Positions 26,598 to 49,147 of a stretch of 64,000 bases of DNA are shown piece after piece; position 1 is the stretch's first letter; each line of letters begins with the position of its first letter. The stretch covers positions 930,001 to 994,000 of the forward strand of contig NZ_CP102277.1 in the NCBI RefSeq assembly GCF_025149785.1, given 5' to 3'. Source of the stretch: Coprococcus comes ATCC 27758. GTDB taxonomy: Bacteria; Bacillota; Clostridia; Lachnospirales; Lachnospiraceae. The position numbers and the translations under genes are program-made. The notes below the pieces were generated by a model. The model made no database searches, was not told the origin of the DNA, and saw only the letters and a list, made by a program, of their open reading frames with translations.

Positions 26598-27656
26598 ATG
26601 GAAATTGTAATCTTGAGTTTTACAGATGCAGGCTGTCAGATGGCCTGTAAAGTCAGAGAGAATTTCATACAAAGCGGATACCGTGTCAAAGTGTATACTT
26701 TGACACGGTTTTGCAGATTATACGGATTTCATGCTTTTCCGGAAGATAAGAAAAGCTGGATAGGCAGCCTCTGGGGAGAGAAGGCTTTGTTTTTTATCGG
26801 GGCGGCAGGAATCGCAGTGCGGATGATCGCCCCTCATGTGAAGGACAAATTTACCGATTCGCCGGTTCTGGTGATGGATGAAAAAGGAAGCTATGTGATT
26901 CCGCTCCTGTCGGGACATGTGGGCGGAGCTGTAGAGCTTGCAAAGGAAATCGCGGAGAAAATAGATGCGCAGGCAGTATTTACTACAGCAACGGATGTGG
27001 AACAAAAGTTTGCGGTAGATGTATTTGCAAAAAGCAATGGTCTGGTACTGACAGACCGGAAAAAGGCAAAGGAGATCTCAGCTGTGGTTCTGGATGGGAA
27101 AAAGATTGGATTTTACAGTGTATTTCCAGTAGAAGGAAAGCTTCCGGAAGAATTAAAGCTATGTGAAACAGAAGAGCTTCTTAGAAACTATCCATATGGA
27201 ATCCGGATTGCAGAAAGAAGTGGCGAAAGGCGGGAAGAAGAAACGATTCTGGATCTTTTGCCGAAGAACCTGGTGCTGGGAATCGGATGTCGCAAAGGGA
27301 TTTCCGAAGAAGAGATCCAAAGTGCGGTCAATGAGGTCAAAAAGATCCTTGGATTTACAGAAAAGGAAGTCAGTGAGATCGACAGTATTGATTTGAAAAA
27401 AGAAGAAGCGGGATTACTTTCTTATGCGGCAAAGTGGAAGCTTCCATTTTACACGTTTTCGGCAGAAGAGTTGGGAAAGGTTAAATGTGTCAGCTCCCAT
27501 TCGGAGTTTGTCCGGAAGGTCACAGGTGTGGACAATGTCTGTGAGCGGGCGGCGATCCTTGCAGCCGGAGAGGATGGCAGGCTTCTGATGCCGAAGCAGT
27601 GCATGAACCGGGTGACAATAGCAGTGGCAGAAAAGAAGGTAAGGATCAGAATATGA
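26598..27656 (+). CDS. cbiG: Cobalt-precorrin-5A hydrolase CbiG
   Basis: 352 residues. CbiG opens the delta-lactone of cobalt-precorrin-5A and releases acetaldehyde. The N-terminal domain has FIGAAGIAVRMIAPHVKDK (about 66-84) and PLLSGHVGGAVELAKEIAE (about 102-120); the C-terminal domain starts at LVLGIGCRKGISEEEI (about 226) and contains VNEVKKILGFTEKEVSEIDS. It overlaps cbiJ by four bases (ATGA), so they are translationally coupled. It is far from the main cobalamin operon and has no visible B12 riboswitch. Confidence 0.92.
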   Translation: MEIVILSFTDAGCQMACKVRENFIQSGYRVKVYTLTRFCRLYGFHAFPEDKKSWIGSLWGEKALFFIGAAGIAVRMIAPHVKDKFTDSPVLVMDEKGSYVIPLLSGHVGGAVELAKEIAEKIDAQAVFTTATDVEQKFAVDVFAKSNGLVLTDRKKAKEISAVVLDGKKIGFYSVFPVEGKLPEELKLCETEELLRNYPYGIRIAERSGERREEETILDLLPKNLVLGIGCRKGISEEEIQSAVNEVKKILGFTEKEVSEIDSIDLKKEEAGLLSYAAKWKLPFYTFSAEELGKVKCVSSHSEFVRKVTGVDNVCERAAILAAGEDGRLLMPKQCMNRVTIAVAEKKVRIRI

Positions 27657-28414
27657 AGCGGATTTTAATATTTTCAGGGACAACAGAGGGAAGGCGGATT
27701 ACGGAATTTCTGGATGGAAGAAATGTAAAAGTTTATGTCAGTGCCGCAACCGAATATGGAAAAGAATGTACCGGAGAGCATGAGAATGCGGAAGTCTTTT
27801 TTGGGCGTATGGATCAGAAGCAGATGGCAGAGATGATAAAGGAAAAGCAGATCGATCTGGTGATCGATGCAACTCATCCATTCGCACAGATCGTGACTGG
27901 GGAGATAAGGAGGGCCTGCGAAATCTCCGGTGTGCAGTATCTGCGTTGCCTGCGGGAGAAGATGGAAGCAGTGCCGGATGAAGCGGATAGGGTGATCTGG
28001 GCGCAGTCGGTTGAAGATGCGGTGGAATATCTGCAAAATACAGAAGGAAAGATTCTGATTACCACCGGAAGCAAGGAACTGATAAAATATACAAAGCTTA
28101 CGGAGTATAAAGAGCGCTGCTTTGCGAGAGTCCTCTCTACGGAGCAGGCGGTTATGGAGTCGGTCGCGCTTGGTTTTGAAGGAAAGCATCTCATTGCAAT
28201 GCAGGGACCATTTTCAAAGGAGATGAACGTGGCTACGATCCATCAGACAGGCGCGAAATACTTTGTGACCAAAGAATCGGGAAAAGCCGGAGGCTTTGGA
28301 GAAAAGGTACAGGCAGCAAAGGAAACAGGGGCAGTTCTTGTTGCGGTAGGAAGACCAAAAGAAACAGGGAGAACATTTTCAGAAGTCTGTAAATGGCTGG
28401 AAAAGAATCTGTAA
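27653..28414 (+). CDS. cbiJ: Cobalt-precorrin-6A reductase CbiJ/CobK
   Basis: 253 residues from ATG 27653, which overlaps the cbiG stop. Reduces cobalt-precorrin-6A to 6B using a pyridine nucleotide. Seen are ILIFSGTTEGRRITEFL at the N-terminus, LVIDATHPFAQIVTGEIRRA near 72, ILITTGSKELIKY near 140 and a conserved closing region VTKESGKAGGFGEKVQAAKE. Together with cbiG it supplies two steps absent from the 34-55 kb operon. Confidence 0.92.
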   Translation: MKRILIFSGTTEGRRITEFLDGRNVKVYVSAATEYGKECTGEHENAEVFFGRMDQKQMAEMIKEKQIDLVIDATHPFAQIVTGEIRRACEISGVQYLRCLREKMEAVPDEADRVIWAQSVEDAVEYLQNTEGKILITTGSKELIKYTKLTEYKERCFARVLSTEQAVMESVALGFEGKHLIAMQGPFSKEMNVATIHQTGAKYFVTKESGKAGGFGEKVQAAKETGAVLVAVGRPKETGRTFSEVCKWLEKNL

Positions 28415-33995: not shown

Positions 33996-34021
33996 GAGTA
34001 AGAATAAATAAAGAAACTTTT

Positions 34022-34192
34022 TCAGTGCTAGGCAGAAGAATTTCTGGTCGGCTTAAAAGGGAATCAGGTGAAAGTCCTGAGCGATCCGGTCACTGTAAAT
34101 GAGGAGCAAAGCGGCGGCAAGCCATTGCATAAAAATGTGAGAAGGTGCAGCTTTGTTAAGATCCATAAGCCAGGAGACCTGCTGAAAGAGAG
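34022..34192 (+). promoter_or_regulatory. Cobalamin riboswitch
   Basis: Adenosylcobalamin-type aptamer. The core GGGAATCAGGTGAAAGTCC (34059-34077) with GCGATCCGGTCACTGTAA downstream are the conserved J3/4 and J6/3-type sequences, and the B12 box AGCCAGGAGACCTGC is at 34168-34182. It is followed by a hairpin terminator at 34239, so ligand binding is expected to cause premature termination. It lies upstream of a secreted protein gene and the whole uptake and biosynthesis operon. Confidence 0.95.
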
Positions 34193-34238
34193 TAAATTGC
34201 TTCCGATGAAAGCGCGTTTACATACACAAAGAAATGAT

Positions 34239-34275: not shown

Positions 34276-34326
34276 TGCTGCCATATATACGGAAAAGAGT
34301 TCCGGTGGCAGAGGATGTAGGTGAAG

Positions 34327-34360
34327 TCTGCTTTCAGGAAAAAGGAAGCAGATTTTTTTT
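34327..34360 (+). terminator. Second terminator-like hairpin downstream of the B12 riboswitch
   Basis: TCTGCTTTC (34327-34335) pairs with GGAAGCAGA (34344-34352), followed by eight T. It lies 52 bases after the first terminator and 117 bases before the first gene. A copy of the dispersed GATGAG element (34353-34392) follows directly. Confidence 0.75.
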
Positions 34361-34476: not shown

Positions 34477-37323
34477 ATGAAGAGGAATTCAAAACAGTTT
34501 CTTGCACTTTTCATGGCAGTTGCAATGTCGGTTACACCGGTTTCTTATGCTTACGCTGAGGACAGTGCAGTGGCAGGAGTAGAAAATACAGAATCAGGTC
34601 AGCAGACCGTAGAAGTAACAGACGGAAAAATCGGTGCGGCAGACGTAGCAGGTCAGCCGGCTGAAGAAGTGACTGGACAGGAAGAAGAAACGACTGCCGG
34701 ACAGGGAACGGACGAGAATCAGAAGAGTCAGGAAGAGCCGAAAGCAGAAGAAAATGCGGCAACAGGGAATGTAACTGAGGCAGAGAAAAAAGAAGCGGGC
34801 GAAGACGGAAAGAGCGAAGAGAAGGCTGCAGAGGAGCAGAAGGTTAAGTCGGAAGAAACGGCGGAAAATGCCGGGGAAGTGAAGACGCAGGAAGCGAAAA
34901 ATGTTACCAGTGATTTTGCAATGTTTAAGGTTGGATCGTCTTCTGTTGTAAAAGAAAATGATCACCTGAAAGTTTCGATAGAAACAGAGAGTAAAACTTA
35001 CAATAAAATTTATATTGGAAGTAAAGCTGATACAGTTGAACGGAAAGAAGAAAAGGCGATAGTTGGAACAGGAACAGGCAACGGGTATTTATTTTCATTT
35101 GAACTTCCACTGTCAGCAGATGGAACGGATGTTGCCTTTGTACCGCATAGCCAAAAGAAAGGTTGGGTGAGTAAGAAAGAAGACGGAGATTACACGCTTC
35201 ATATTTCATCGTCAGCAGAAAATAAAAAAGACGACACAGAAAATCCTGAACAGGGGGGTAATTCAGGAGAGAGCAAACCGGAAACCGGAAGTGGCGAAAA
35301 CCAGAAACCGGGAAATGAGGACAAGAACGTACTGGATACTGGAAAGTATGTAGTAGATGTTGATGCAGCTTCAGCTAGTGGAATGTTTCGTGTAGTAAAT
35401 TGCGTGCTGACATCTGTTGGTGGCAAGATGCAGGCAGATATTACACTTAGTGGAACGGGATACGATAAGTTATATATGGGAAGTAAGGAAGCTGCGGCAA
35501 GTGCTTCGGAAGATCAACTGATTGGGTATTCTGTAAATGCAGAAGGAAAACATGTATTTACAGTGCCAGTAGAAAGTATGGATACCGGAGTCCAGATTGC
35601 AGCACATGGATTCAATAGTGGTAACTGGTATGATCGTACATTAATATTCAAGACAGAAGGAATGACCAAATATGTTCAGGTAAGTGATGGCTCTTATAAA
35701 GCAAACGTAACTTCAAGTTCATCCATGTTTAAAGTTACGGATTGCATCTTAACATCAAAAAATGGGGAGATGACTGCAAAAATTACACTCAGTGGTACAG
35801 GATATGATTATCTGTATGTAGGAACAAGTGCAGAAGCAGCACTTGCAGATAAGTCCAAGTGGATTCCTTATGTTGTGGACAAAAATGGTATGTATACCTA
35901 TACGATTCCGGTTTCTTTATTAGACACAGGAATTTCAGTGGCAGCATTTTCTCATAAAAAGCAAGTATGGTATGACCGTACCTTGACATTCGCCTCAGCA
36001 GGCATGAAGAATCTGAACAATAGCAATTCCACAAATGGAAATACTGGAAATAATGGCAACACCAACCAGGGAAATAACACCAGCCAGAACACCAACTTTG
36101 GAACCGGCACCACTTCCGGAGGCACAGGCACAAACCAGACCCCGGACAAAGAATCCAAATATGAGGCAGATTTAAATGGTGGAACTGCCCGTGTAAACAG
36201 TGCAACAACACTTGCAGACGGTGTCTATACACCGGATAAATTTTCCTGGTCAGGTGGAACCGGAAAGGTCAGTATCAGTTGTACCAAGATTACCGTGACA
36301 GGCGGTCAGGCATATGCTACCATTGTATTTAGCAGTGGTTCTTATGGCTATGTAAAGGCGAATGGAAATACCTATTATCCGACAGCAACCGGAAGTACGT
36401 CTACATTTGTCATTCCGGTAGAACTGAACAAGAACAATACGATCATCGGTATGACAACCAAGATGTCAACAGCGCATGAAATCAGCTATTCGATTTTCAT
36501 TTACCTAAGTGCTGCAGCAAAAGCAGACGGAACTACAGTAAGTGGGGAGACCAATTTAAGTGCAGATACACTGGATGAGAAAGCGCCGGAAATCATGGGA
36601 CTTTCTTATCAGTCTGAGACAAAGGTAGAGCATGCTAAGTACTTCAAGATCTATCATTATGATCAGGGAATCACTCTTTTAGAAATCGATCAGAGAAAAG
36701 ATGAGGATACAAAAGAGACCAAGACAAAGGATACAAAAGAAGATACAGATTCCGGGCTGACACCGGCACAGGAAGAACAGCTTGCGCTTTACAAAGCAAA
36801 GATCGTCCGGTATCTGATCGTCCCGGAAGACGCAGAAATTCCGGCAGGTCTGGATAAAGAAATGATCGTGATCCAGAAGCCAAAGAAGTCTGCATATGTA
36901 GGTTCAGAGGAAGTACTGGAAATCCTGGATAAGCTGAATGCAACAGACCAGATTACATCAGTAGGGGTAAAACAGAAGAACTGTAAGGTAGAAGGCATTG
37001 CAAAAGCAATGAAAGCTAAGAAGATCATTTATGCAGGAACCTATAAGAAACCGGAAAATAAAAAACTGATGAAGAGTAAGTGTGATCTTGCAATCCTTTC
37101 CAATAAAATTCTTCCGGATGAAAAGAATGAGAAGAAAATGTCGGTAGAAGATCAGCAGAAGAGATACGAAGAGCTGGCAGAAAAATTTGTTCTTCTGGAT
37201 GTTCCGATGATCGTTGACCGGTCAGCAGATGAGGAAAAGGATGATGCAAAAGCAGAGTGGAGCAAGGTTTACGAGGCAATTTTCGCGCAGACAGACAGTA
37301 CAGATTCTTCTGCAAAAAACTAG
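34477..37323 (+). CDS. Large secreted multidomain protein with half of a BtuF/TroA-like binding fold
   Basis: 948 residues from ATG 34477 (AGGAGGAAG upstream). A signal peptide ends at about AYA-27. Residues 28-145 are a Glu/Lys/Ala/Gln-rich low-complexity stalk. Four beta-type domains follow at about 146-243, 289-396, 405-510 and 562-683. The second and third are clear repeats, sharing MFRVVNCVLTS/MFKVTDCILTS, LSGTGYDKLYMGS/LSGTGYDYLYVGT and WYDRTL. An Asn/Gly/Thr-rich linker lies at 512-562. Residues 703-948 align with the N-terminal lobe of the next gene's binding protein. No LPXTG motif is seen. It is probably a surface corrinoid-capture protein, given the B12 riboswitch; this is inference. 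Confidence 0.8.
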   Translation: MKRNSKQFLALFMAVAMSVTPVSYAYAEDSAVAGVENTESGQQTVEVTDGKIGAADVAGQPAEEVTGQEEETTAGQGTDENQKSQEEPKAEENAATGNVTEAEKKEAGEDGKSEEKAAEEQKVKSEETAENAGEVKTQEAKNVTSDFAMFKVGSSSVVKENDHLKVSIETESKTYNKIYIGSKADTVERKEEKAIVGTGTGNGYLFSFELPLSADGTDVAFVPHSQKKGWVSKKEDGDYTLHISSSAENKKDDTENPEQGGNSGESKPETGSGENQKPGNEDKNVLDTGKYVVDVDAASASGMFRVVNCVLTSVGGKMQADITLSGTGYDKLYMGSKEAAASASEDQLIGYSVNAEGKHVFTVPVESMDTGVQIAAHGFNSGNWYDRTLIFKTEGMTKYVQVSDGSYKANVTSSSSMFKVTDCILTSKNGEMTAKITLSGTGYDYLYVGTSAEAALADKSKWIPYVVDKNGMYTYTIPVSLLDTGISVAAFSHKKQVWYDRTLTFASAGMKNLNNSNSTNGNTGNNGNTNQGNNTSQNTNFGTGTTSGGTGTNQTPDKESKYEADLNGGTARVNSATTLADGVYTPDKFSWSGGTGKVSISCTKITVTGGQAYATIVFSSGSYGYVKANGNTYYPTATGSTSTFVIPVELNKNNTIIGMTTKMSTAHEISYSIFIYLSAAAKADGTTVSGETNLSADTLDEKAPEIMGLSYQSETKVEHAKYFKIYHYDQGITLLEIDQRKDEDTKETKTKDTKEDTDSGLTPAQEEQLALYKAKIVRYLIVPEDAEIPAGLDKEMIVIQKPKKSAYVGSEEVLEILDKLNATDQITSVGVKQKNCKVEGIAKAMKAKKIIYAGTYKKPENKKLMKSKCDLAILSNKILPDEKNEKKMSVEDQQKRYEELAEKFVLLDVPMIVDRSADEEKDDAKAEWSKVYEAIFAQTDSTDSSAKN

Positions 37324-37354: not shown

Positions 37355-38560
37355 ATGAAAAAGAGAACGATGCGTCTGGGGTGCATTCTTTTGAGTACAG
37401 TGCTGCTTGGGACGGCAGCACTGACCGGATGCGGGCAGACGAAAAAGAATACAACAGATACAAAAAAAACAGAAAGCAGCAGTACGAAAGAAAGTGCCAA
37501 AGAAAAAAAAGGTCCGGAGATTGACGGACTCACTTATGAATCCGCGATGGATCTGGAATATGCCGAAGGTTTTCAGGTATATTACTACAAAGACGGCTAT
37601 AAGATGATCGATATCAAAGACGATGCAAAATTTCTGGTCGTCCCGGAAAATCAGGATGTGCCGGATGGAGCCGAGGAGGATTACGTGATCCTTCAGCAGC
37701 CGCTGGATCATATTTATCTTGCGGCGACATCTGCAATGGCACTTTTTAATGCGATCGATTCTCTGGATAATATCACAATGACAGGTACCCAGGCTTCCGG
37801 ATGGTATATTGAAAATGCAGTCAAAGCGATGGATGACGGGAAAATAAAATTTGCAGGGAAATACAGTGAACCGGATTATGAGATGCTGGTGGACGAAGAC
37901 TGTGATCTTGCCATCGAATCGACCATGATCCTTCACACACCGAAGGTACAGGAGATGATTGAATCTCTGGATATCCCGGTGATGATCGACCGGTCCAGCT
38001 ATGAATCGCATCCTCTAGGAAGAACTGAATGGATCAAACTTTATGCAGCAATGCTGAATAAAGAAGATGCAGCGGATGCATTTTTTGAAAAGCAGGTGGA
38101 AAATGTCGATGCGCTCAAAGATTTTAAGAATACCGAGAAGACAGTTGCATTTTTCTATGTAAGCAGTGACGGAACGGTGGTAGTAAGAAGAAGTGATGAT
38201 TATATTCCGAAAATGATCGAACTTTCCGGTGGAAGATATGTATTCGATGATCTGACTGGCGATGACAGTAATACTTCAGCAGTAAAACTTACAATGGAAG
38301 AATTTTACGCACAGGCGGCGGATGCAGATTATCTGATTTATAATTCAAGTATCGATAATCCAATCAACAGTGTAAAAGATCTGGAAGAAAAAGATGCACT
38401 TTTTTCTGATTTCAAAGCAGTCAAAGAAGGAAATGTATGGTGTACCGGTAAATATCTGTATCAGGCAACCGATATCGTTGGGGAACTGATCACGGATATG
38501 AATCTGATGCTGACAGGCGGCGATGAAAGCAAGATGACATTTTTATACCATGTAAAATAG
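37355..38560 (+). CDS. Lipoprotein substrate-binding protein, corrinoid/iron-complex type
   Basis: 401 residues. Lipobox TAALTGC with Cys 26, then a linker and a two-lobed helical-backbone binding fold (BtuF/TroA class). The N-lobe includes GLTYESAMDLEYAEGFQVYY and CDLAIESTMILHTPKVQEMI; the C-lobe includes VAFFYVSSDGTVVVRRSDDY and a closing region LEEKDALFSDFKAVKEGNVW. Its position under a B12 riboswitch and before btuC- and btuD-like genes suggests cobalamin or cobinamide as ligand. The C-terminal part of the preceding gene is a paralogue of its first lobe. Confidence 0.86.
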   Translation: MKKRTMRLGCILLSTVLLGTAALTGCGQTKKNTTDTKKTESSSTKESAKEKKGPEIDGLTYESAMDLEYAEGFQVYYYKDGYKMIDIKDDAKFLVVPENQDVPDGAEEDYVILQQPLDHIYLAATSAMALFNAIDSLDNITMTGTQASGWYIENAVKAMDDGKIKFAGKYSEPDYEMLVDEDCDLAIESTMILHTPKVQEMIESLDIPVMIDRSSYESHPLGRTEWIKLYAAMLNKEDAADAFFEKQVENVDALKDFKNTEKTVAFFYVSSDGTVVVRRSDDYIPKMIELSGGRYVFDDLTGDDSNTSAVKLTMEEFYAQAADADYLIYNSSIDNPINSVKDLEEKDALFSDFKAVKEGNVWCTGKYLYQATDIVGELITDMNLMLTGGDESKMTFLYHVK

Positions 38561-38575
38561 AAAACGGAGAAGAAA

Positions 38576-39613
38576 ATGGGACAGGCAGGAATGAAAAATA
38601 ACTGGAAAAGGAATACAAGATATATGGGAGTCTTTGCGGTGCTGGCAGCAGTTTTTTGCATGATTGTAGTGCTGAACATCAATACCGGAAATGTACAGAT
38701 CTCGGTTCCTGAGATTTTACGGATTCTGTTTCTGAAAAAAGGAACACAGGTGCAGATGAATATTATCTGGAAAATCCGTCTTCCGCGTGTCCTGATGGCA
38801 GGGATTCTGGGAGGGGCACTTGCCCTTTCCGGATTTTTATTGCAGACATTTTTTTCCAACCCGATCGCAGGACCGTATGTACTGGGGATTTCTTCGGGTG
38901 CAAAGATGATGGTCGCTCTGGCGATGATCATCTTTTTAAAATATTACACTTTGGTATCATCTTATATACTGATCATTGCAGCATTTATCGGATCTATGCT
39001 TTCAATTGGATTTATCCTGCTTCTTGCAAGAAAAATCCGGAATATGGCAACTCTTCTGGTTGGCGGAATCATGATCGGTTATATCTGCTCGGCAGTAACT
39101 GATTTTGTAGTGACTTTTGCGGAGGATTCAGATATCGTGAATCTGCATGGCTGGTCACAGGGAAGCTTTTCCGGTATGAGCTGGAGCAATGTAAAGGTAG
39201 CAGCGCTTATGGTAGGAATCACACTGATCCTTACCTTTTTCCTGTCAAAGCCGATCGGAGCGTATCAGCTGGGGGAAATGTATGCGCAGAGTATGGGGGT
39301 CAATATCCGTGTGTTCCGGGTGCTTCTGATTCTGCTTTCCAGTGTATTTTCCGCATGTGTGACCGCATTTGCAGGACCGATTTCATTCGTTGGAATCGCA
39401 GTTCCGTACTTGATCAAGCATCTTCTCGGGACGGCAAAACCGCTGGTTGTGATACCGGCAACATTCCTTGGCGGGGCGGTGTTCTGTATGGGATGTGATC
39501 TGATCGCGCGTATGGCATTTGCACCACTGGAGCTGAATATCAGTACCGTGACTTCGATCTTTGGTGCACCGATCGTAATTTTCATGATGATAAAAGGAAG
39601 AAAAGGGAAATAA
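38576..39613 (+). CDS. btuC: BtuC/FecCD-family ABC permease
   Basis: 345 residues, about ten membrane helices. Family motifs: IRLPRVLMAGILGGALALSG (about 63-82), SNPIAGPYVLGISSGAK, LLVGGIMIGYICSA and the ATPase-contact region FAGPISFVGIAVPYLIKHLL near 265. It forms the channel of the importer with the adjacent ATPase. The iron-siderophore and cobalamin members cannot be separated by sequence alone; the riboswitch and neighbours favour corrinoid. Confidence 0.9.
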   Translation: MGQAGMKNNWKRNTRYMGVFAVLAAVFCMIVVLNINTGNVQISVPEILRILFLKKGTQVQMNIIWKIRLPRVLMAGILGGALALSGFLLQTFFSNPIAGPYVLGISSGAKMMVALAMIIFLKYYTLVSSYILIIAAFIGSMLSIGFILLLARKIRNMATLLVGGIMIGYICSAVTDFVVTFAEDSDIVNLHGWSQGSFSGMSWSNVKVAALMVGITLILTFFLSKPIGAYQLGEMYAQSMGVNIRVFRVLLILLSSVFSACVTAFAGPISFVGIAVPYLIKHLLGTAKPLVVIPATFLGGAVFCMGCDLIARMAFAPLELNISTVTSIFGAPIVIFMMIKGRKGK

Positions 39614-39615
39614 AT

Positions 39616-40722
39616 ATGAGTGAGAACTATTTTCAGATGAAAGATCTTTCTGTCGGATATCATGGAAATGTACTGATCCATGATATCTGTACAGAGATTA
39701 AAAAAGGTGAGATATTGACACTGATTGGACCAAACGGTTCCGGGAAATCTACGATTTTAAAAAGTATTACCAAACAGCTTACGCTCATTGGAGGTAAGGT
39801 GACGATCGGTGAAAAGAATCTGAAAGACTTATCTTACAAAGAGCTTGCAACGAAGATGGCAGTGGTGCTGACACAGCGGGCAAAGCCGGAGCTGATGACC
39901 TGCTATGAGGTCGTAGCAGCAGGGCGGTATCCTTATACAGGACGGCTCGGGATATTAACGCGAGAAGATGAGAAAAAGACACAGGAAGCACTGGAAATTG
40001 TCCATGCAACAGAATACGCAGAAAAAAGTTTTGAGGCGATCAGTGACGGGCAGAGACAGCGGATCCTTCTGGCAAGAGCGATCTGTCAGGAACCGGAGGT
40101 ACTGATCCTGGATGAACCCACTTCTTTTCTGGATATCCGTTATAAGCTGGAGTTGCTTACTATTTTGAAAAATATGGCGAAAGAAAAGCAGATCACGGTC
40201 ATTATGTCACTTCATGAGATCGATCTGGCGCAGAAGATCTCGGATAAGATCCTTTGCGTTAAAGGAGATACGATTTTCGGTTATGGAGAGCCAGAGGCGA
40301 TTTTTAAAGAAGATTTTATCCAGAAACTTTATGAGATCGACAACGGGCATTTTGATCCTGTGTTCGGAAGTGTGGAGCTTGCAAAGGCGGAGGGAGAGGC
40401 AGAAGTATTTGTGATCTCTTCCGGAGGCAGTGGAATCCCTGTTTACCGGAACCTTCAGAAAGCAAAGATTCCATTTTCGGCAGGAATCCTGTATACTAAT
40501 GATATTGACTATCATCTGGCAGAACATCTGGCAGTCAGCGTAATCGAAGAAGAGCCATTTGAACCGGTAAGCGATCGTGCATTTGAACGGGCAAAGCAGA
40601 TGATCAGGCAGTGTAAAAAGGTGATAAATGCAGGAATTGTGATTGGGACAACCAACCGGAAGATAAAAGAACTGCTTGTATTTGCAGAAGAAATGGGAAA
40701 GCTGGAATCATATGAAAAATAG
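39616..40722 (+). CDS. btuD: Cobalamin-type ABC ATPase with C-terminal extension
   Basis: 368 residues against about 255 for FepC/BtuD. Walker A GPNGSGKSTILKS (about 35-47), signature ISDGQRQRILLARA near 138, Walker B VLILDEPTSFLDIR and H-loop MSLHEIDLAQKISD. Residues about 258-368 form an extra domain (VFVISSGGSGIPVYRNLQKA, SAGILYTNDIDYHLAEHLAV, INAGIVIGTTNRKIKEL). From memory, similar extensions occur on some archaeal cobalamin-import ATPases, which supports the corrinoid assignment. It overlaps the next gene by 11 bases. Confidence 0.9.
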   Translation: MSENYFQMKDLSVGYHGNVLIHDICTEIKKGEILTLIGPNGSGKSTILKSITKQLTLIGGKVTIGEKNLKDLSYKELATKMAVVLTQRAKPELMTCYEVVAAGRYPYTGRLGILTREDEKKTQEALEIVHATEYAEKSFEAISDGQRQRILLARAICQEPEVLILDEPTSFLDIRYKLELLTILKNMAKEKQITVIMSLHEIDLAQKISDKILCVKGDTIFGYGEPEAIFKEDFIQKLYEIDNGHFDPVFGSVELAKAEGEAEVFVISSGGSGIPVYRNLQKAKIPFSAGILYTNDIDYHLAEHLAVSVIEEEPFEPVSDRAFERAKQMIRQCKKVINAGIVIGTTNRKIKELLVFAEEMGKLESYEK

Positions 40723-41239
40723 ACTTTTGCACATTTACTGTGGAGATGGAAAAGGAAAGACGACGGCGGCAACGGGGCTTGCAGTTCGCGCAGCTGGAAG
40801 TGGTATGCGGGTTCTGTTTGCCCGTTTTTTAAAAAATGAATTTTCGGGAGAATTGAAGATCCTGGATCGGATCCCGGAGATCGAGGTACTTCATCTTGAA
40901 AAAAGCTATGGATTTTTTAAGACACTTTCCGAAAAGGAACAGGAAGAAGTCCGAGAGATGTATGGCAGGCTGTGGAATACGATCCTAGGGAAAATCAGTA
41001 CAGGGGATTATGATATGCTTGTGATTGATGAATTTATGGCGGCATACCGGTATGGACTGATCCCGAATAAAGAGGCGGTGCAGTTCTTAAAAGACAGACC
41101 GGACAATCTGGAAGTGGTTCTGACCGGACGGGATCCGTCAGATGAGCTTCTGGAGCTGGCAGATTATATTTCGGAAGTAAAGATGGTACGGCATCCTTTT
41201 GAAAAAGGAATCCGGGCAAGGAAAGGCATCGAATACTAA
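40712..41239 (+). CDS. cobA: Corrinoid adenosyltransferase, CobA/CobO type
   Basis: 175 residues from ATG 40712, overlapping the ATPase gene. It transfers the adenosyl group of ATP to cob(I)alamin or cob(I)yrinate diamide. P-loop GDGKGKTTAATGLAVRA at residues about 10-26, YDMLVIDEFMAAYRYGLIP near 98, VVLTGRDPSDELLELADYIS near 130 and the terminal FEKGIRARKGIEY are family features. It links imported corrinoids to the coenzyme form and also serves de novo synthesis. Confidence 0.94.
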   Translation: MKNRLLHIYCGDGKGKTTAATGLAVRAAGSGMRVLFARFLKNEFSGELKILDRIPEIEVLHLEKSYGFFKTLSEKEQEEVREMYGRLWNTILGKISTGDYDMLVIDEFMAAYRYGLIPNKEAVQFLKDRPDNLEVVLTGRDPSDELLELADYISEVKMVRHPFEKGIRARKGIEY

Positions 41240-41248
41240 GGAGACGAA

Positions 41249-42385
41249 ATGGAAATGGACAAGATGCAGGTCGTGTGGAAAAATCAAAAAGAACTGCGGT
41301 GTGGATACACAACAGGAAGCTGTGCTGCGGCAGCAGCAAAGGCGGCAGCGGCAATGCTCTTTTCCGGGGAGGAAATCCGCCAGGTATCTCTTATGACGCC
41401 GAAAGGGATCGAACTGTATCTGGAAGTAGAAAAGATCCAAAGAGAAAATGAATCTGTCAGCTGTGCCATTCAGAAGGACAGCGGAGATGACCCGGATGTG
41501 ACGAACGGGATCTTCGTTTACGCCAAGGTCACGAAAAAAAGGGAAAAAGGAGTGACCTTAGATGGTGGGATCGGAGTAGGGCGGTTCACCCGGAAGGTGC
41601 TGGAGCAGGAAGCCGGGGAAGCGGCGATCAATAAGGTTCCGCGGCAGATGATCCGGGAAGCGGTGCAAAGCCAGATTGAGAAATATGACTGGGATGGTGG
41701 CGCAGACGTTCTGGTCTATGTTCCGCAGGGCGTGGAGATCGCGAAGAAAACGTTTAATCCAAGACTTGGGATCGAAGGTGGGATTTCGGTACTCGGAACC
41801 TCAGGAATCGTAGAACCGATGAGTGAACAGGCACTGACGCAGACTATTTTCCTGGAAATGAAGATGCTTCGTGATGAAGGTCACCGGTATTGTTATCTGA
41901 CACCGGGAAATTATGGAAATGATTTTTTAAGGCAGACACTTGGGTACGACCAGGAGCTTGCGGTGAAATGCAGCAATTATATCGGGGATGCGATTGATGA
42001 CGGCGTGCGGCTGAAGATGGACGGACTGCTGCTTGTAGGACATATCGGAAAGCTGGTCAAGATCGCTGCAGGTGTAATGAATACTCATTCCAGACAGGCG
42101 GATGCAAGAATGGAAGTGCTTGCCGTCCATGCGGCAATGGCAGGGGCAGACCGGGAGACAGTCTGTGCTCTGATGAAGTGTTTTACGACGAAGGAAGCAT
42201 TGGATATTCTGGAAGAAAGAGGACTTTTGGAAGAGACGATGCGGACCGTGATGGAGAAGATCGAGTATCATTTGGCGAAGCGTGCCGGCGAGAAGATGAA
42301 GGTCGGGGCGCTGATGTTTTCGGATGAGCTCGGGGTTCTTGGAAAGACATCTCTTGTGGACAAACTGAGGGAAAAGATCGGATAG
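41249..42385 (+). CDS. cbiD: Cobalt-precorrin-5B C1-methyltransferase CbiD
   Basis: 378 residues, SAM-dependent C1 methylation in the anaerobic route. The hallmark LRCGYTTGSCAAAAAKAAA is at residues about 16-34, with DSGDDPDVTNG near 77, GIGVGRFTRKVLEQEAGEAA near 105, LGTSGIVEPMSE near 180 and LLVGHIGKLVKIAAGVMNTH near 260. AAGGAG is five bases before ATG 41249; a second in-frame ATG lies six bases later. It begins the biosynthetic part of the operon. Confidence 0.95.
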   Translation: MEMDKMQVVWKNQKELRCGYTTGSCAAAAAKAAAAMLFSGEEIRQVSLMTPKGIELYLEVEKIQRENESVSCAIQKDSGDDPDVTNGIFVYAKVTKKREKGVTLDGGIGVGRFTRKVLEQEAGEAAINKVPRQMIREAVQSQIEKYDWDGGADVLVYVPQGVEIAKKTFNPRLGIEGGISVLGTSGIVEPMSEQALTQTIFLEMKMLRDEGHRYCYLTPGNYGNDFLRQTLGYDQELAVKCSNYIGDAIDDGVRLKMDGLLLVGHIGKLVKIAAGVMNTHSRQADARMEVLAVHAAMAGADRETVCALMKCFTTKEALDILEERGLLEETMRTVMEKIEYHLAKRAGEKMKVGALMFSDELGVLGKTSLVDKLREKIG

Positions 42386-42405: not shown

Positions 42406-43143
42406 ATGGCAGGAAGATTTGACCTTGCGGGTGTAGGTCCGGGAGATCCGGAACTGATGACGATAAAGACAATTCGTGCGATTAAAGCGTGTCAGGTATT
42501 GGTACTTCCAATTGGCAGTCCGGAGTTAAAGAAACCGGAACTGGAAGAGGGGGAAGAAGAGACATTTGCAAAAGAATGTCTGGCATATCGGATTGCGTGT
42601 GAGGCAGAGCCGGAGACGAAAAAGAAGCTGCGGCTGTATCTTCCCATGCCAATGATCAAGGAAAAAAAGCTACTGAAAGAGATACACGATGCGGGTGCAA
42701 GAAAGGCGTCAGAGCTTCTGGAGAAAGGAAAGAATCTGGTTTTTCTGACGATTGGAGATCCGACCGTGTATTCGACAGGAATTTATATTTATAAAAGACT
42801 GAAAAAGATGGGATATCAGGGGGAAATCTTTTCCGGGATTCCGTCTTTTTGTGCTGCGGCAGCAAGGCTGGAGATCTCGCTTGTGGAGAACCGGCAGGAG
42901 CTGCATGTTCTTCCGGTGTCCTATGGAATTGAAGAAAAGTTGAAGCTTCCGGGGACGAAGGTTCTTATGAAGACCGGGAAAAAGATGGCGCAGGTCAAAG
43001 CTGTTCTGAAAGAGGAAGGACAGCAGGCGAAAATGGTCATGAACTGCGGAATGGATGGAGAAAAAATTTACAAATGCACAGAAGAAATACCGGAAGATGC
43101 AGGATATTTTTCGATTGTAATAGCAAAGGAGAAAGAAAAATGA
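42406..43143 (+). CDS. cbiL: Cobalt-precorrin-2 C20-methyltransferase CbiL
   Basis: 245 residues, tetrapyrrole methylase fold. The N-terminal LAGVGPGDPELMTIKTIRAI is the SAM-binding methylase signature; FLTIGDPTVYSTGIYIYKRL (about 105-124) is the second conserved loop, followed by GIPSFCAAAARLEISLVE. CbiL methylates C20 of cobalt-precorrin-2, the first committed step of the cobalt-early route in this set. It overlaps cbiF by four bases. Confidence 0.94.
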   Translation: MAGRFDLAGVGPGDPELMTIKTIRAIKACQVLVLPIGSPELKKPELEEGEEETFAKECLAYRIACEAEPETKKKLRLYLPMPMIKEKKLLKEIHDAGARKASELLEKGKNLVFLTIGDPTVYSTGIYIYKRLKKMGYQGEIFSGIPSFCAAAARLEISLVENRQELHVLPVSYGIEEKLKLPGTKVLMKTGKKMAQVKAVLKEEGQQAKMVMNCGMDGEKIYKCTEEIPEDAGYFSIVIAKEKEK

Positions 43144-43916
43144 TTCATTTTGTTGGAGCAGGAAGCGGTGCTGTGGATCTGATCACAGTACGGGGGCAGA
43201 AGCTTTTGAAGGAAGCAGATATAGTGGTGTATGCCGGTTCACTGGTAAATCCGGAGCTTCTTAAGAATTGTCAGAAGGACTGTCAGATCTACAACAGTGC
43301 GAAGATGACGCTGGAAGAAGTGATGGAAGTGATGATTTCCGGAGAGAAGCAGGAGAAAAAAGTCGTCCGGCTGCATACGGGTGATCCGTGTCTGTATGGT
43401 GCGATCAAAGAGCAGATGGATCTGCTGGAAAAGGAGAATATTTCTTATAAAGTGTGCCCGGGAGTCAGCTCCTTTTGCGGAGCGGCATCTGCACTGAATG
43501 CAGAATATACTCTTCCTGGGATTTCACAGTCTGTGGTGATCACACGGATGGCAGGAAGAACACCGGTTCCGGAAAAAGAATCCATTGAAAGCTTCGCTGC
43601 GCACCAGGCAACAATGGTAATCTTTTTAAGTACCGGGATGCTGGAAGAACTGTCGAAGCGTCTGATCGAAGGCGGTTATCAGCCGGAGACTCCGGCAGCG
43701 ATCGTCTACAAGGCAACCTGGGAGGATGAAAAGGTGTGCAGATGTAAAGTGAAAGATCTTGCGGTGACAGCAAAGGAGAATGGAATTACAAAGACAGCAC
43801 TGATCGTGGTTGGTGAGGTGCTTGGCGGAGAGTATGAACGGTCACTTTTATATCATCCGGAGTTTACAACAGAGTTCAGGCAGGGCAAAGGAAAAGAAGG
43901 TGCAGGAAATGTGTAA
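43140..43916 (+). CDS. cbiF: Cobalt-precorrin-4 C11-methyltransferase CbiF
   Basis: 258 residues from ATG 43140, overlapping the cbiL stop (ATGA) with AAAGGAG upstream. [20 protein letters not shown] at the N-terminus, [33 protein letters not shown] near 82 and [20 protein letters not shown] near 107 identify CobM/CbiF, which methylates C11 of precorrin-4. The closing segment [20 protein letters not shown] is also typical. It overlaps cbiH by eight bases. Confidence 0.95.
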
Positions 43917-44652
43917 AATTGGAAAAGTCTATGTAATCGGTCTTGGACCGGGTGCTGAGAAAGAAATGACATACCAGGCGTCCACGGCACTGGAAAAAAG
44001 TGAGGTTATTATCGGGTATACCGTATATACGGGACTGATACGGGAAAGGTTTCCGGATAAAAAGTACCTTTCCACACCAATGCGGCAGGAAGTGATCCGC
44101 TGTGAGATGGCAATGGATGAGGCGATGAAAGGAAGAACGGTAGCTATGGTATGCAGTGGGGATGCCGGAATTTACGGAATGGCAGGTCTGCTCTATGAGA
44201 TGGGACAGGGCTACCCGGAGGTGGAGCTGGAGGTCGTGCCGGGGATCACGGCGGCAAATGGCGGTGCGGCAGTTCTTGGTGCACCTCTGATGCATGATTT
44301 TGCAGTGATCAGTCTGAGTGATCTTCTGACACCGTGGGAGAAGATTGAAAAGAGGATCCGCGGAGCTGCGATGGCGGATTTTGTGATCTGTCTGTATAAT
44401 CCGTCCAGCCGGAAACGGGCAGATTACCTGAAAAAGGCATGTGAGTATATCCTGGAGTACCAGAGCCCGGATACAGTCTGCGGTTATGTGCGGAACATCG
44501 GACGTGAAGGCGAAGATGCACATATTCTGACACTTTCTGAGCTGAAGGATACGGAGGTCGATATGTTTACAACCGTTTATATCGGCAACAGCCAGACGAG
44601 AAATGTGGATGGGAAAATGGTGACACCGAGAGGCTATCGATTGGAGGAATAA
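43909..44652 (+). CDS. cbiH: Cobalt-precorrin-3 C17-methyltransferase CbiH
   Basis: 247 residues from ATG 43909, inside the end of cbiF. Ring-contraction methylase of the CbiH/CobJ family. VIGLGPGAEKEMTYQASTAL at the N-terminus, VIIGYTVYTGLIRERFPDK, AMVCSGDAGIYGMAGLLYEM near 82 and VVPGITAANGGAAVLGAPLM near 108 are the four signature blocks. VDMFTTVYIGNSQTRNVDGK near the end is specific to this branch. Confidence 0.95.
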   Translation: MCKIGKVYVIGLGPGAEKEMTYQASTALEKSEVIIGYTVYTGLIRERFPDKKYLSTPMRQEVIRCEMAMDEAMKGRTVAMVCSGDAGIYGMAGLLYEMGQGYPEVELEVVPGITAANGGAAVLGAPLMHDFAVISLSDLLTPWEKIEKRIRGAAMADFVICLYNPSSRKRADYLKKACEYILEYQSPDTVCGYVRNIGREGEDAHILTLSELKDTEVDMFTTVYIGNSQTRNVDGKMVTPRGYRLEE

Positions 44653-44654
44653 CT

Positions 44655-45875
44655 GTGGAAAACCGAAAATGCCAGGTAAATCTTGCCGGGATCGGGATGG
44701 GAAGCAAAGGAACGCTTACGGAAGAGGTCAGAAAGATCATTGCGGAAAGTGATGTACTGATCGGAGCTACGCGGATGCTGGAAGGATTCCGGGAAAAAAA
44801 GAAATGCTGCTATGCAGAGTATCTGCCGGAAAAAATCAGAGCAATCCTGGATGAGCAGGAGGAAAAGACCAGATGTACGGTGCTGTTTTCCGGGGATACC
44901 GGATTTTACAGCGGGGCAAAAAAGCTGGCGGATATTCTGAAAAAAGACGGATATGAAGTACAGATTTTTCCGGGGATTTCATCTGTAATCTATCTTGCGG
45001 CAAAGCTTGGAAAAAGCTGGGAGGATGCAAAGATTCTCAGCATGCATGGAAGAAGTCAGAATTTTATCCATGTAGTTGCAAACCATGAAAAGACATTTCT
45101 GATCCTTGGGAAAAGTGCGGGAAAAGAGATCTGCGAAAAACTGAAATATTACCATCTGGAACAAGTAACCGTTTCGGTTGGAAATCATTTGTCTTATCCG
45201 GATGAAGAGATTGTGATCAAAAAAGGAAACGAGCTTCAGGAAGAAGATTTTGGTGATCTTACCACTATTCTGATTGAGAATCCAAAGCCGGAAAAGAGAA
45301 CAGGAATTCATCTTGCAGATGAGGAGCTGATCCGTGGAAGTGTTCCGATGACGAAGGAGGAAGTGCGGACAGTCAGCATTGCAAAATTGAAGCTTACAAA
45401 GAATGCAGTAATATATGATGTGGGGGCCGGAACCGGTTCAGTGTCTATAGAGGCTGCTCTTCAAGGAGAGAATCTCCGCGTTTATGCAATAGAGAAGAAT
45501 CCGGAGGGTGCAGAACTGATCAGGAAGAATATGCAGAAATTCCGGGCAGACCAGATTCAGGTTATAGAAGGAGTTGCACCGGAGGCACTGGAAGCACTGG
45601 AAATGCCGACCCATGCTTTTATCGGAGGCAGTACAGGACAGTTAAAAGAAATTATTCAGTGCATAAAGAAAAAAAATCCGGACGTCCGTATCGTGATCAA
45701 TGCAATTTCGCTGGAAACCGTGAAGGAAGCGATGGAGGCGATGGAGGAAGGACTGCTTGCAGATCCGGAAATCATACAACTGAATGTGGCAAAGTCAAAG
45801 AAACTTGGAAGATATCACATGATGACCGGGTTAAATCCGATTTATATTATTTCAGACGGAGGAGATATAGAATGA
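44655..45875 (+). CDS. cbiET: Fused cobalt-precorrin-7 C5-methyltransferase / C15-methyltransferase (CbiE-CbiT, CobL type)
   Basis: 406 residues from GTG 44655 with GGAGG seven bases upstream. The CbiE half (about 1-205) has the methylase signature LAGIGMGSKGTLTEEVRKII and FSGDTGFYSGAKKLADIL. The CbiT half (about 215-406) has the SAM motif VIYDVGAGTGSVSIEAAL near 252 and HAFIGGSTGQLKEIIQ near 318. Together they methylate C5 and C15 and decarboxylate the C12 acetate. It overlaps cbiA by four bases. Confidence 0.94.
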   Translation: MENRKCQVNLAGIGMGSKGTLTEEVRKIIAESDVLIGATRMLEGFREKKKCCYAEYLPEKIRAILDEQEEKTRCTVLFSGDTGFYSGAKKLADILKKDGYEVQIFPGISSVIYLAAKLGKSWEDAKILSMHGRSQNFIHVVANHEKTFLILGKSAGKEICEKLKYYHLEQVTVSVGNHLSYPDEEIVIKKGNELQEEDFGDLTTILIENPKPEKRTGIHLADEELIRGSVPMTKEEVRTVSIAKLKLTKNAVIYDVGAGTGSVSIEAALQGENLRVYAIEKNPEGAELIRKNMQKFRADQIQVIEGVAPEALEALEMPTHAFIGGSTGQLKEIIQCIKKKNPDVRIVINAISLETVKEAMEAMEEGLLADPEIIQLNVAKSKKLGRYHMMTGLNPIYIISDGGDIE

Positions 45876-47254
45876 AAATTCCCGGAATTGTAATCGCGGC
45901 ATCTGCCAGTGGGAGTGGAAAGACAGCGGTGACAATGGCAATGATGAAAGCATTTAAAAATACCGGAAAGAAGGTACGCGCCTGCAAATGCGGACCGGAT
46001 TATATTGATCCTATGTTTCACTGGGAGGTGCTGGGAATTGATTCCGAGAACCTGGATCTGTATTTTTGTGACCGGGAGCGCTTGAAAGAGCGGTTTATGC
46101 ATCATGCGGAAGGCGCGGAGCTTGTGGTGACAGAAGGTGTGATGGGGTACTATGACGGGATCAGTCTGGATTCGGATGAGGCAAGTACTTATGACGTTGC
46201 GAGAACCCTGGGACTTCCGGTAATCCTGGTTGTTCCGGCAAGAGGTATGGCATCGACAATCCTGGCAGTATTGAAGGGAATGATTGAATACCGGAATGAC
46301 AGTAATATCCGGGGAATCATTCTGAACCGGATTTCCCCGATGCTGTATCCGAAGATGAAGAAGATGATCGAAGAGGGATTGCAGACAATGGGATTCCAGG
46401 TTCAGGTGGTTGGTTATGTGCCGGAGGAGGATGCTTTTCATCTGGAGAGTCGGCATCTGGGACTGATGCTTCCGGAGGAAATAGGGAACCTGGGAAAACA
46501 GATTGACCGGGCAGCAGAGATTCTGACAGAGACACTTGATATGGAATCGGTGCTGAAAATTGCCTGGGAAGCAAAAGAAATGGAGTATCATCCGGTGAAG
46601 GCAAAACAGGAAGCAGCCGGACGAAAAGTGCGTATCGGCGTAGCGCGTGACTTGGCCTTTTGTTTCTATTACAAGGATAATATGGAGCTTTTAAAAGAGC
46701 TTGGATGTGAGATCATTCCGTTTAGTCCTTTGGAGGATACAAGGCTTCCGGAACATTTAGACGGACTTTTATTTGGTGGTGGATATCCGGAACTTTGTGC
46801 GAAACATCTGGCAGAAAACAGAGCTATGCGAAAAGATGTAAGAAAGCAGATTGAAAATGGAATTCCATGTATTGCGGAATGTGGAGGATTTCTATATTTG
46901 GCAGAAGAGCTGGAAGGGGAAGATGGAAAGCACTATCCGATGGTGGGGGTACTTCCGGGAAAAGGGATCAAAAAAGGGCGACTTACCAGATTCGGATACA
47001 TTGAGCTGACTGCGGAAATGAACGGAGTGTATATGAAAAAGGGAGAGAAGATCCGGGCGCATGAGTTCCATTATTGGGATTCTACGGAAAACGGAGAGGA
47101 TACACTTGCCGTAAAGCCGGATGGTGTGAGAAAATGGCAGGCTGTTCATATGAAGGGGAATCTGTTTGCGGGATTTCCGCATTTATACTTTTATTCCAAC
47201 CCCAAAGTGGCCAGACGCTTTGTAGAAGCGTGTAGAACCTACAGAAGCAAGTAA
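45872..47254 (+). CDS. cbiA: Cobyrinate a,c-diamide synthase CbiA
   Basis: 460 residues from ATG 45872 (GGAGGAGA upstream, ATGA overlap). Glutamine-dependent amidation of the a and c carboxylates. The N-terminal P-loop domain has VIAASASGSGKTAVTMAMM and CKCGPDYIDPMFHWEVLG; the C-terminal class I glutaminase domain has LLFGGGYPELCAKHLAENRA near 294, and catalytic cysteine in IPCIAECGGFLYLAEEL near 335. RAHEFHYWDST near 393 holds the glutaminase histidine region. Confidence 0.95.
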   Translation: MKIPGIVIAASASGSGKTAVTMAMMKAFKNTGKKVRACKCGPDYIDPMFHWEVLGIDSENLDLYFCDRERLKERFMHHAEGAELVVTEGVMGYYDGISLDSDEASTYDVARTLGLPVILVVPARGMASTILAVLKGMIEYRNDSNIRGIILNRISPMLYPKMKKMIEEGLQTMGFQVQVVGYVPEEDAFHLESRHLGLMLPEEIGNLGKQIDRAAEILTETLDMESVLKIAWEAKEMEYHPVKAKQEAAGRKVRIGVARDLAFCFYYKDNMELLKELGCEIIPFSPLEDTRLPEHLDGLLFGGGYPELCAKHLAENRAMRKDVRKQIENGIPCIAECGGFLYLAEELEGEDGKHYPMVGVLPGKGIKKGRLTRFGYIELTAEMNGVYMKKGEKIRAHEFHYWDSTENGEDTLAVKPDGVRKWQAVHMKGNLFAGFPHLYFYSNPKVARRFVEACRTYRSK

Positions 47255-48374: not shown

Positions 48375-49147
48375 AATTTTTAGAACCGATGATCGTTGCG
48401 TTTTCTATGTATTCAAAAATACCGATGCCGCGCATTGAGTGGAACAAGGAAAATATGAAATATACGATGTGTTTCTTTCCGCTGATCGGTGTTGTGACCG
48501 GAGTACTCATTTATCTGGCAGGAATGTTTCTTGATGGAAATATTTTTCCGAAAGTAAACAGTGGAAGACTGATGTTTGCTGCGGTTATGACATTGATACC
48601 GGTTTTTGTAAGTGGAGGGATCCATCTGGATGGATTTATGGATACGATGGATGCACTTGGATCCTGGGGAGATAAAGAAAAGAAACTGGAAATCCTGAAA
48701 GATTCGCATAACGGTGCTTTTGCGGTCATCGGAATCTGCTGTTATTTTACCGTAAGCCTTGGCGTATGGAGTGAAATCCGGACGGAGATGCTTCCGGTAG
48801 TAGCAGCAGGATATGTAATTTCAAGAGCGCTCAGTGGGATTGCTGTAGTGACATTTCCGGCAGCAAGAGGAAGCGGTCTTGTAAAGACTTTCCAGGATGG
48901 AGCACAGAAAAAGGCAGTAAGGATCACAATGATTGTATACCTGATCCTGGCGGCAGTATATTTGTATTTCTGTTCGCCGGTTGGTATGGTGGTACTTCTT
49001 ATAATTGCAGGAGTAGTATTTGGATATTATTACCGGATGAGCAGGAAACAGTTTGGAGGTGTTACCGGGGATCTGGCGGGATACTTTCTGCAGATTTGTG
49101 AGCTGGCATTATTAGTTGGGGGATTGATTGTGCAGGGAATCAAATGA
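48371..49147 (+). CDS. cobS: Adenosylcobinamide-GDP ribazoletransferase CobS
   Basis: 258 residues, integral membrane cobalamin-5'-phosphate synthase with about six helices. AFSMYSKIPMPRIEWNKENM at the N-terminus and GGIHLDGFMDTMDALGSWGD (about 78-97), carrying the metal-binding acidic residues, are the family hallmarks; DSHNGAFAVIGICCYF follows. GGVTGDLAGYFLQICELALL is the conserved C-terminal helix. The stop codon lies inside the first copy of a 19-base tandem repeat. Confidence 0.95.
   Translation: MKFLEPMIVAFSMYSKIPMPRIEWNKENMKYTMCFFPLIGVVTGVLIYLAGMFLDGNIFPKVNSGRLMFAAVMTLIPVFVSGGIHLDGFMDTMDALGSWGDKEKKLEILKDSHNGAFAVIGICCYFTVSLGVWSEIRTEMLPVVAAGYVISRALSGIAVVTFPAARGSGLVKTFQDGAQKKAVRITMIVYLILAAVYLYFCSPVGMVVLLIIAGVVFGYYYRMSRKQFGGVTGDLAGYFLQICELALLVGGLIVQGIK

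Follow-up and report, generated by a model that had tools for sequence, protein, structure and literature searches.

NEAT domains bind flat porphyrins, typically through a Tyr-x3-Tyr motif that supplies an axial Tyr ligand, the first Tyr of the motif binding the haem iron, and BtuCDF-type importers are established for corrinoids. Here we describe a locus of the human gut species Coprococcus comes in which a relay of the first kind and an importer of the second appear to be joined. The locus lies within a 64,000-nucleotide stretch of strain ATCC 27758 (contig NZ_CP102277.1, positions 930,001 to 994,000; hereafter the window, to whose own positions and forward strand all coordinates refer unless stated otherwise), and its central gene, at 34477..37323, encodes a secreted protein of 948 residues in which four NEAT-like domains are followed by half a binding protein. 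We propose that this protein is probably a riboswitch-controlled NEAT-superfamily relay that feeds a BtuCDF-type importer. Its cargo in this organism may be a precursor from early in B12 ring synthesis, either sirohydrochlorin or its cobalt form, and we consider the case for that choice of ligand to be evenly balanced.

Several described systems bear on this proposal. Bacteroides capture B12 at the cell surface with the lipoproteins BtuG and those carrying the DUF4465 beta-jellyroll domain, as far as the abridged sources describe them (PMC6143338, PMC13398666). Tetrapyrrole precursor salvagers, mostly Firmicutes, carry the corrin and loop parts of the B12 pathway without its early steps (Shelton et al., PMC6461909); in the portions of that paper drawn on here, a requirement for 5-aminolevulinic acid (ALA) is demonstrated in three salvager species, Porphyromonas gingivalis is given as lacking the steps to precorrin-2, and no uptake system for a ring precursor is named. 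P. gingivalis FetB is described, in the part of a review that treats it, as a chelatase able to swap the metal of a porphyrin (PMC13402209). Our literature searches, by titles and the starts of abstracts and with subscription journals mostly uncovered, found nothing that joins NEAT domains with cobalamin uptake and nothing on sirohydrochlorin uptake in gut bacteria.

The translation of the central gene opens with a signal peptide (34477..34557, by eye) and a charged stretch, much as an initial annotation made from the sequence alone had described, and continues through repeat 1 (D1, 34873..35214), repeat 2 (D2, 35332..35658), repeat 3 (D3, 35680..36000), a diverged domain (D4, 36208..36501) and a half-lobe (36571..37290). 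The two clear internal repeats reported by that annotation are D2 and D3, which are 47.5% identical over 101 residues (E 1.3e-34) and score 110 and 126 bits with the repeat profile; its two additional beta-like domains turn out to be members of this superfamily too. One of them, D1, is a weaker copy of the repeat (56 bits with the same profile; 27.6% identity to D3, blastp E 1.7e-9). D4, at 102 bits with its profile, has no blastp match to the other repeats and is tied to them by profile comparison at 99% probability, the profiles coming from iterated searches that were already beginning to overlap. By eye, the translation has neither a lipobox nor a C-terminal LPXTG, and the Pfam matches of the protein include no anchoring domain. 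Among named relatives, Coprococcus comes MSK.16.63 carries the version nearest to this gene, 89% identical in the best segment of a search that gave two loci.

The link to NEAT domains emerged only because relatives, profiles and models were used, since searches with the single sequence came back blank: the window protein has no match to Pfam NEAT (PF05031, gathering cut-off 32.8 bits) at E<=1, Pfam and NCBIfam gave nothing useful over the whole protein, and phmmer against the PDB gave nothing. Among relatives, 30/72 D4 domains and 19/76 repeat domains match NEAT at E<=0.01, the best bit score shown being the 31.6 bits of one D4 domain (locus L045), still under the cut-off. With a profile of the repeats, the best PDB matches are the NEAT structures 4h8q and 4h8p (E 0.0013), and the D4 profile matches nothing there beyond 48 columns of IsdX1 (3sik, E 0.022). 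An AlphaFold2 model of D3 alone (predicted local distance difference test score, pLDDT, 92.7) has IsdX1 as its best Foldseek match (E 1.7e-5, template modelling (TM) score 0.63, probability 1.00), and ranks 1-41 are all NEAT-kind haem-uptake proteins or their complexes, with Shp counted as presumably NEAT-like and with three matches at E<=0.001. A model of D3, D4 and the half-lobe together (mean pLDDT 86.7) finds IsdB, IsdX1 and IsdH, followed by periplasmic binding proteins. The NEAT-type domains suggested initially are thus recovered by both profile and model: the repeats are remote NEAT-superfamily domains by predicted fold, below the cut-off of the PF05031 family itself.

The residues that would contact a ligand differ from those of NEAT haem binders. 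Once domains scoring at or below 60 bits with their own profiles are dropped, D1 of the window among them, the first Tyr of Y-x3-Y is Lys in 70/102 repeats in the NEAT5 alignment and the second Tyr is kept in 97/103; in the window the first position is Lys in D3 and Ser in D2. At the corresponding column D4 has His in 88/102 domains and Tyr in 2/102, and the D4 of the window reads His-x3-Tyr. Judging from the alignment, this His is likely a ligand. It is not proven to be the equivalent of the NEAT Tyr, because hhalign sets the Tyr of D4 two residues away from that of the repeats.

The regulation of the gene points towards B12. A cobalamin riboswitch aptamer at 34006..34200 scores 104.7 bits with RF00174 (gathering cut-off 31.5 bits, E 3.6e-25), and the gene, whose ATG at 34477 is preceded by AGGAGG, is the first after it, in keeping with the initial annotation. 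Between the two, a consensus scan places a terminator-like hairpin (34323..34356; 13 pairs, then a T run) that could form an OFF-switch platform with the aptamer, in a scan that returned 7 such sites in 4 kb against 3.3 expected. The whole genome, of 3.37 Mb, has two cobalamin riboswitches, and both precede loci with NEAT-like repeats.

Directly downstream lie a binding lipoprotein of the Peripla_BP_2 family (37355..38560, BtuF-like, Pfam E 7.6e-46), a FecCD-family permease (38576..39613, BtuC-like, E 8.9e-76) and an ATP-binding cassette (ABC) ATPase (39616..40722, BtuD-like, Pfam ABC_tran). The best NCBIfam matches of the permease, to BtuC (195.6 bits, cut-off 334), and of the ATPase, to a corrinoid ABC transporter ATPase (198.7 bits, cut-off 537), do not reach their cut-offs, and the importer's corrinoid specificity rests on context. 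The ATPase has a C-terminal extension past its ABC domain, and the corrinoid-ATPase model PRK09536 aligns with residues 6-351 of its 368.

The half-lobe is a copy of the N-lobe of this binding lipoprotein, which residues 777-944 match with 32% identity and E 6.9e-19, a value that, like those between the repeats, lies well outside chance; the initial annotation had already noticed this alignment. That annotation went on to propose that the half-lobe docks on the lipoprotein or the importer. Docking on the importer is weakened by comparison of 70 binding proteins (profile score >400) with 19 half-lobes, and we set it aside. The Glu of the PDYE motif, on what would be the permease face, is Glu in 70/70 binding proteins and becomes Lys in 16 half-lobes, including that of the window, and Arg in the remaining 3; a conserved His is found in 69/70 binding proteins and 0/19 half-lobes, and a conserved Trp in 69/70 and 2/19. 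Hhalign pairs the PDYE Glu, weakly (35% probability), with Glu72 of E. coli BtuF (NLERI), which we take to be a residue that docks on the BtuC permease. With its charge reversed and these residues lost, the half-lobe can hardly be expected to work as the parent lobe does in docking or carrying. We suggest that it is a non-transporting relic that may tether the secreted relay beside the lipoprotein.

What the cell could do with an imported ring is suggested by a gap in its own pathway. The genome is a single contig rated 100% complete, and it has no match to HemB or HemC, for each of which the same search was positive in 11/14 control genomes, nor to CobN, positive in 5/14. Its only CbiK/CbiX match is one exported 419-residue open reading frame (ORF) at contig positions 3018730-3019986 (in the controls CbiK passes its cut-off in 2/14 and CbiX in 10/14), and for precorrin-2 dehydrogenase (PF13241) it has only weak matches of at most 28.4 bits, within ORFs of 331-674 residues, compared with 106 bits for a protein that stands beside the repeats in a relative (L062). 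The searches for upstream steps covered HemB, HemC, CobN, CbiK/CbiX and PF13241. Since HemB, HemC, CobN and a cytosolic CbiK or CbiX are unmatched while the corrin-ring pathway from CbiL onwards is encoded in the window, the cell should by its gene content be able to turn cobalt-sirohydrochlorin into a cobamide, and not to make it inside by the known enzymes searched. ALA alone would not help, because HemB and HemC are both missing. The simplest source of cobalt-sirohydrochlorin would then be the surroundings of the cell, and the nearest candidate for its entry would be the importer of this operon.

The exported CbiK belongs to the second of the two riboswitch loci (L142, G000:C1:3018176-3020326, reverse strand of the contig), in which a B12 riboswitch is followed by the CbiK lipoprotein and then by a lipoprotein with a single repeat. 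This CbiK scores 257 bits with PF06180 (cut-off 26.2), its export signal being recognised by eye and by a simple pattern.

Most corrin genes of the window follow the importer. They begin with a corrinoid adenosyltransferase (40712..41239, Pfam CobA_CobO_BtuR, E 2.9e-58), CbiD (41249..42385, TIGR00312) and CbiL, which acts on cobalt-factor II or precorrin-2 (42406..43143, TIGR01467, 163.4 bits for a cut-off of 163.25). CbiF (43140..43916, TIGR01465), CbiH (43909..44652, TIGR01466), a CbiE-CbiT fusion (44655..45875, TIGR02467 and TIGR02469) and CbiA, also called CobB (45872..47254, NF002204), come next. Beyond these lie CobT (47301..48374, family profile), CobS (48371..49147, TIGR00317, 102.2 bits, below its cut-off of 110), CbiB (49840..50802, TIGR00380), CobD (50818..51873, TIGR01140, 274.5 bits, below 290.55), CbiP (51875..53413, named from its Pfam GATase_3 and CbiA domains), CobU (53401..53952, Pfam CobU) and CbiC (54308..54976, Pfam CbiC). 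CbiG (26598..27656, Pfam CbiG_N and CbiG_C) and CbiJ (27653..28414, Pfam CbiJ, E 4.3e-74) are encoded upstream of the riboswitch. The starts of the adenosyltransferase, CbiF, CbiH, CbiA, CbiP and CbiJ were placed by eye. A partial CobU-like ORF of 133 residues (53949-54350) adjoins the full CobU gene, and the same window holds a 6S RNA at 3686-3866 and a T-box leader at 4940-5160.

Relatives place the NEAT-like domains in a recurrent setting. Our family set takes in 80 regions of relatives that belong to the family of C. comes, which with the window make 81 loci in 73 genomes; regions were chosen among the matches listed, mostly one per genome, with preference for ORFs carrying the repeat (REP), D4 or fusions, and regions that matched through nothing but the binding protein were largely omitted. 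A phylum set comes from a repeat-only search that matched 17/398 genomes; it holds 20 regions from 16 of them (G564 left out) and includes the second locus of the C. comes genome. A riboswitch model (R1) based on 10 aptamers, of which 9 came from these regions themselves, places a cobalamin riboswitch on the same strand no more than 3 kb upstream in 59/81 family loci, and in 52 of the 65 that have at least 3 kb of upstream sequence; shorter upstream sequence applies to 7/59 loci with a riboswitch and 9/22 without. This count excludes a 21-bit match (L076) and includes a locus whose riboswitch precedes another REP gene (L105). Rfam, run on 24 of the 80 regions in three sets, gives a cobalamin riboswitch in 7/8, 2/8 and 1/8, the one in L053 belonging to another operon. 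Of the phylum loci, six of 20 have an upstream riboswitch within the same distance at over 50 bits, nine a weak one (17.9-39.9 bits) and five none. Most family loci, though not all of them, thus have a B12 riboswitch upstream. Three relatives (L100, L102 and L111) encode very large secreted proteins in which seven, six and four repeats were recognised; their stop-to-stop ORFs span 1821, 1600 and 1672 residues, and all three follow a B12 riboswitch.

Across the relatives, the domains are flanked by an exported CbiK cobaltochelatase, which in most of them lies between riboswitch and repeats, and by a BtuCDF-type importer, and either partner is sometimes fused to them; 18 ORFs join REP or D4 to the binding protein in one chain. 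Of the 57 ordinary family loci, 46 have CbiK directly upstream or fused (11 as a fusion; 43 showing a lipobox-like pattern), and CbiK is upstream or fused in 15 of 19 phylum loci (11 with such a pattern; two loci cut by contig or region ends). It is so placed in none of the 19 half-lobe loci, and in 13 of those 19 genomes a CbiK that resembles the exported kind by sequence likeness is found elsewhere, 12 at 70% identity or more to the C. comes protein (itself counted) and one, in G291, of the L044 type. The exported CbiK of L044 matches PF06180 at E 2.9e-84, Salmonella CbiK at 5.5e-48, the structure 9b86, which from its name we take to be the same FetB, at 8.9e-44, and 2xvx at 1.5e-35. It retains the residues aligned with His145 and His207, the histidines given for Salmonella CbiK in the part of the source concerned (PMC7689651).

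A smaller group of relatives departs from this arrangement. In L053, L059, L062, L064, L068 and L133, REP and D4 stand beside an ABC-2 type transporter with no binding protein, the transporter being verified by Pfam in L053, L062 and L133 and by reading in L059, L064 and L068. The D4 His is replaced by Val or Ile in all six, as against His in 88 of the 96 other D4 domains. Tetrapyrrole genes adjoin L053 and L062 (by reading, partly checked) and L133 (by reading), L059 contains a tetrapyrrole methylase, and no tetrapyrrole genes were recognised by reading beside L064 and L068. Possibly, the ABC-2-linked REP-D4 proteins are an export counterpart of the system.

Taken in sequence, the parts suggest the following course of events. 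Low coenzyme B12 would let the riboswitch permit reading of the operon. The repeats, most of which lack the NEAT ligand Tyr, and D4, with its His-x3-Tyr, would pass a ring to the binding lipoprotein, near which the half-lobe probably holds the secreted relay; the BtuC- and BtuD-like proteins would import the ring, and CbiL with the remaining corrin pathway of the window would turn it into B12. Outside the cell, cobalt may be inserted by the exported CbiK of the second riboswitch locus. Sequence or model displays the regulation and export signals, the NEAT-like fold, the importer and corrin genes and the lack of matches to the upstream genes searched, while the ligand, the direction of flow, the insertion of cobalt outside and the role of the half-lobe are inferred.

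Several observations weigh against a precursor as the cargo. To our knowledge, no BtuCDF-type importer is known for sirohydrochlorin. HemC is present in 45/73 genomes with loci, compared with 129/299 in the family sample (Fisher p 0.0004 against the rest), and precursor salvage therefore cannot be the sole role of the system; for the same reason we rejected the idea that the system marks genomes lacking HemC. At least two corrin-ring genes lie near the importer in 9/28 HemC-lacking loci versus 3/44 HemC-bearing loci (Fisher p 0.008, uncorrected for kinship), in a count that excludes the window, L044, L053, L059, L061, L062, L064, L068 and L077 and in which contig ends differ; the remaining 19/28 HemC-lacking loci, some on short contigs, have fewer than two such genes nearby. 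A genome without haem genes may also live on scavenged corrinoid while its pathway decays. Finally, L061, L135 and L136 have no visible B12 link, save for an 18-bit riboswitch match in L135. Homologues regularly found away from corrinoid genes would speak against the corrinoid capture proposed initially; this is mostly not what is seen, the exceptions being these three loci and the six ABC-2 loci. L135, L136 and L061 carry repeat-like domains in secreted proteins, and one neighbour in L135 looks by eye like a flavin mononucleotide (FMN)-binding type of protein.

The strongest competing explanation, in line with the initial annotation, gives the NEAT-like domains finished or late corrinoids (cobamides or cobinamide) as their ligands and has them relay these to the BtuF-like lipoprotein for import. 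Riboswitch control and a BtuC/BtuD-like importer fit it, as do the many genomes with HemC and the 41/44 HemC-bearing loci with fewer than two corrin-ring genes nearby, and the late genes of the window (CobO, CbiP, CobU, CobS and CobT) would be partly usable in cobinamide salvage. However, it leaves unexplained why a sirohydrochlorin-type cobaltochelatase should be exported alongside the relay or form one protein with it, and how the corrin-ring genes of the window are fed where HemB, HemC and a cytosolic chelatase are unmatched, and the affinity of NEAT domains for flat porphyrins also tells against it. We regard it as a serious possibility, with a minority of the probability on its side, and a finished corrinoid as less likely than the precursor to be the cargo in this genome.

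A relay for haem or sirohaem, the usual business of NEAT proteins, would make the B12 riboswitch part of a shared tetrapyrrole regulon. The best fold matches are indeed haem-uptake NEAT proteins, the exported CbiK of L044 is close to the haem-binding protein FetB (9b86), and a genome without HemB and HemC needs outside haem if it uses haem. Yet the two cobalamin riboswitches in the genome each lie ahead of one of these loci, the importer is located in a corrin operon, and the first NEAT Tyr position is mostly Lys in the repeats, so that a haem relay seems to us improbable. That the repeats serve as plain immunoglobulin-like spacers or for adhesion, without any small-molecule ligand, as their low identity to NEAT and a Pfam cut-off unreached by the window protein and by L045 might suggest, is very improbable given the linkage to B12 riboswitches, CbiK and importer and a D4 His kept in most domains outside the ABC-2 type and in none inside it.

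Returning to a precursor as the cargo, it is conceivable, though we consider it doubtful, that cobalt enters the B12 ring outside the cell. Sirohydrochlorin would then receive its cobalt at the surface from a secreted CbiK, the NEAT-like domains would sort the rings, the BtuCDF-type importer would bring in the product and, in some relatives, a separate ABC-2 transporter would move the metal-free ring. On the same doubtful proposal, metal-free rings would go to the repeats and to D4 domains with Val or Ile, and cobalt-loaded rings to D4 domains with His. If true, neighbours could share a half-made vitamin by way of this ABC-2 transporter and its D4 partner without the His.

The locus offers a concrete candidate route, with each part separately named, for the uptake of a B12 ring precursor. 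If the proposal is right, the NEAT fold extends from haem to the B12 family, and bacteria of this kind gain an extracellular capture system of the B12 type, as BtuG provides for Bacteroides. With the BtuG-type lipoproteins, as described in the parts of those sources drawn on above, the system would share capture of a B12-type molecule outside the cell, ahead of an importer; it differs in using a NEAT-like fold rather than the beta-jellyroll of DUF4465, and in occurring in Coprococcus. Like the salvagers of PMC6461909, so far as the portions consulted characterise them, C. comes has the corrin pathway, and here HemB and HemC are both unmatched.

With the NEAT haem relays (Isd, IsdX1/IsdX2, Hbp2 and Shp) the protein shares a predicted fold (TM about 0.6), secretion and domains in series, and the hand-over to the lipoprotein of an ABC importer would be like that of Isd; it departs from them in its sub-cut-off Pfam scores, the Lys at the first Tyr, the His-x3-Tyr of D4, the B12 riboswitch and, in relatives, the CbiK partner. 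Compared with the BtuCDF corrinoid importer, the Peripla_BP_2 lipoprotein, FecCD permease, ATPase and B12 riboswitch are common to both, whereas here NEAT-like domains precede the importer, and are fused to it in some relatives, and the proposed cargo is a precursor. The exported CbiK of L044 matches both FetB and the 2xvx chelatase, but in this setting it is lipoprotein-like, controlled by a B12 riboswitch and coupled in relatives to NEAT-like domains and mostly to an importer too; in the genome of the window, unlike those CbiK-coupled relatives, the exported CbiK is located at the second locus. What sets the system apart is the proposed joining of a NEAT relay with a BtuCDF-type importer, accompanied in relatives by an exported chelatase.

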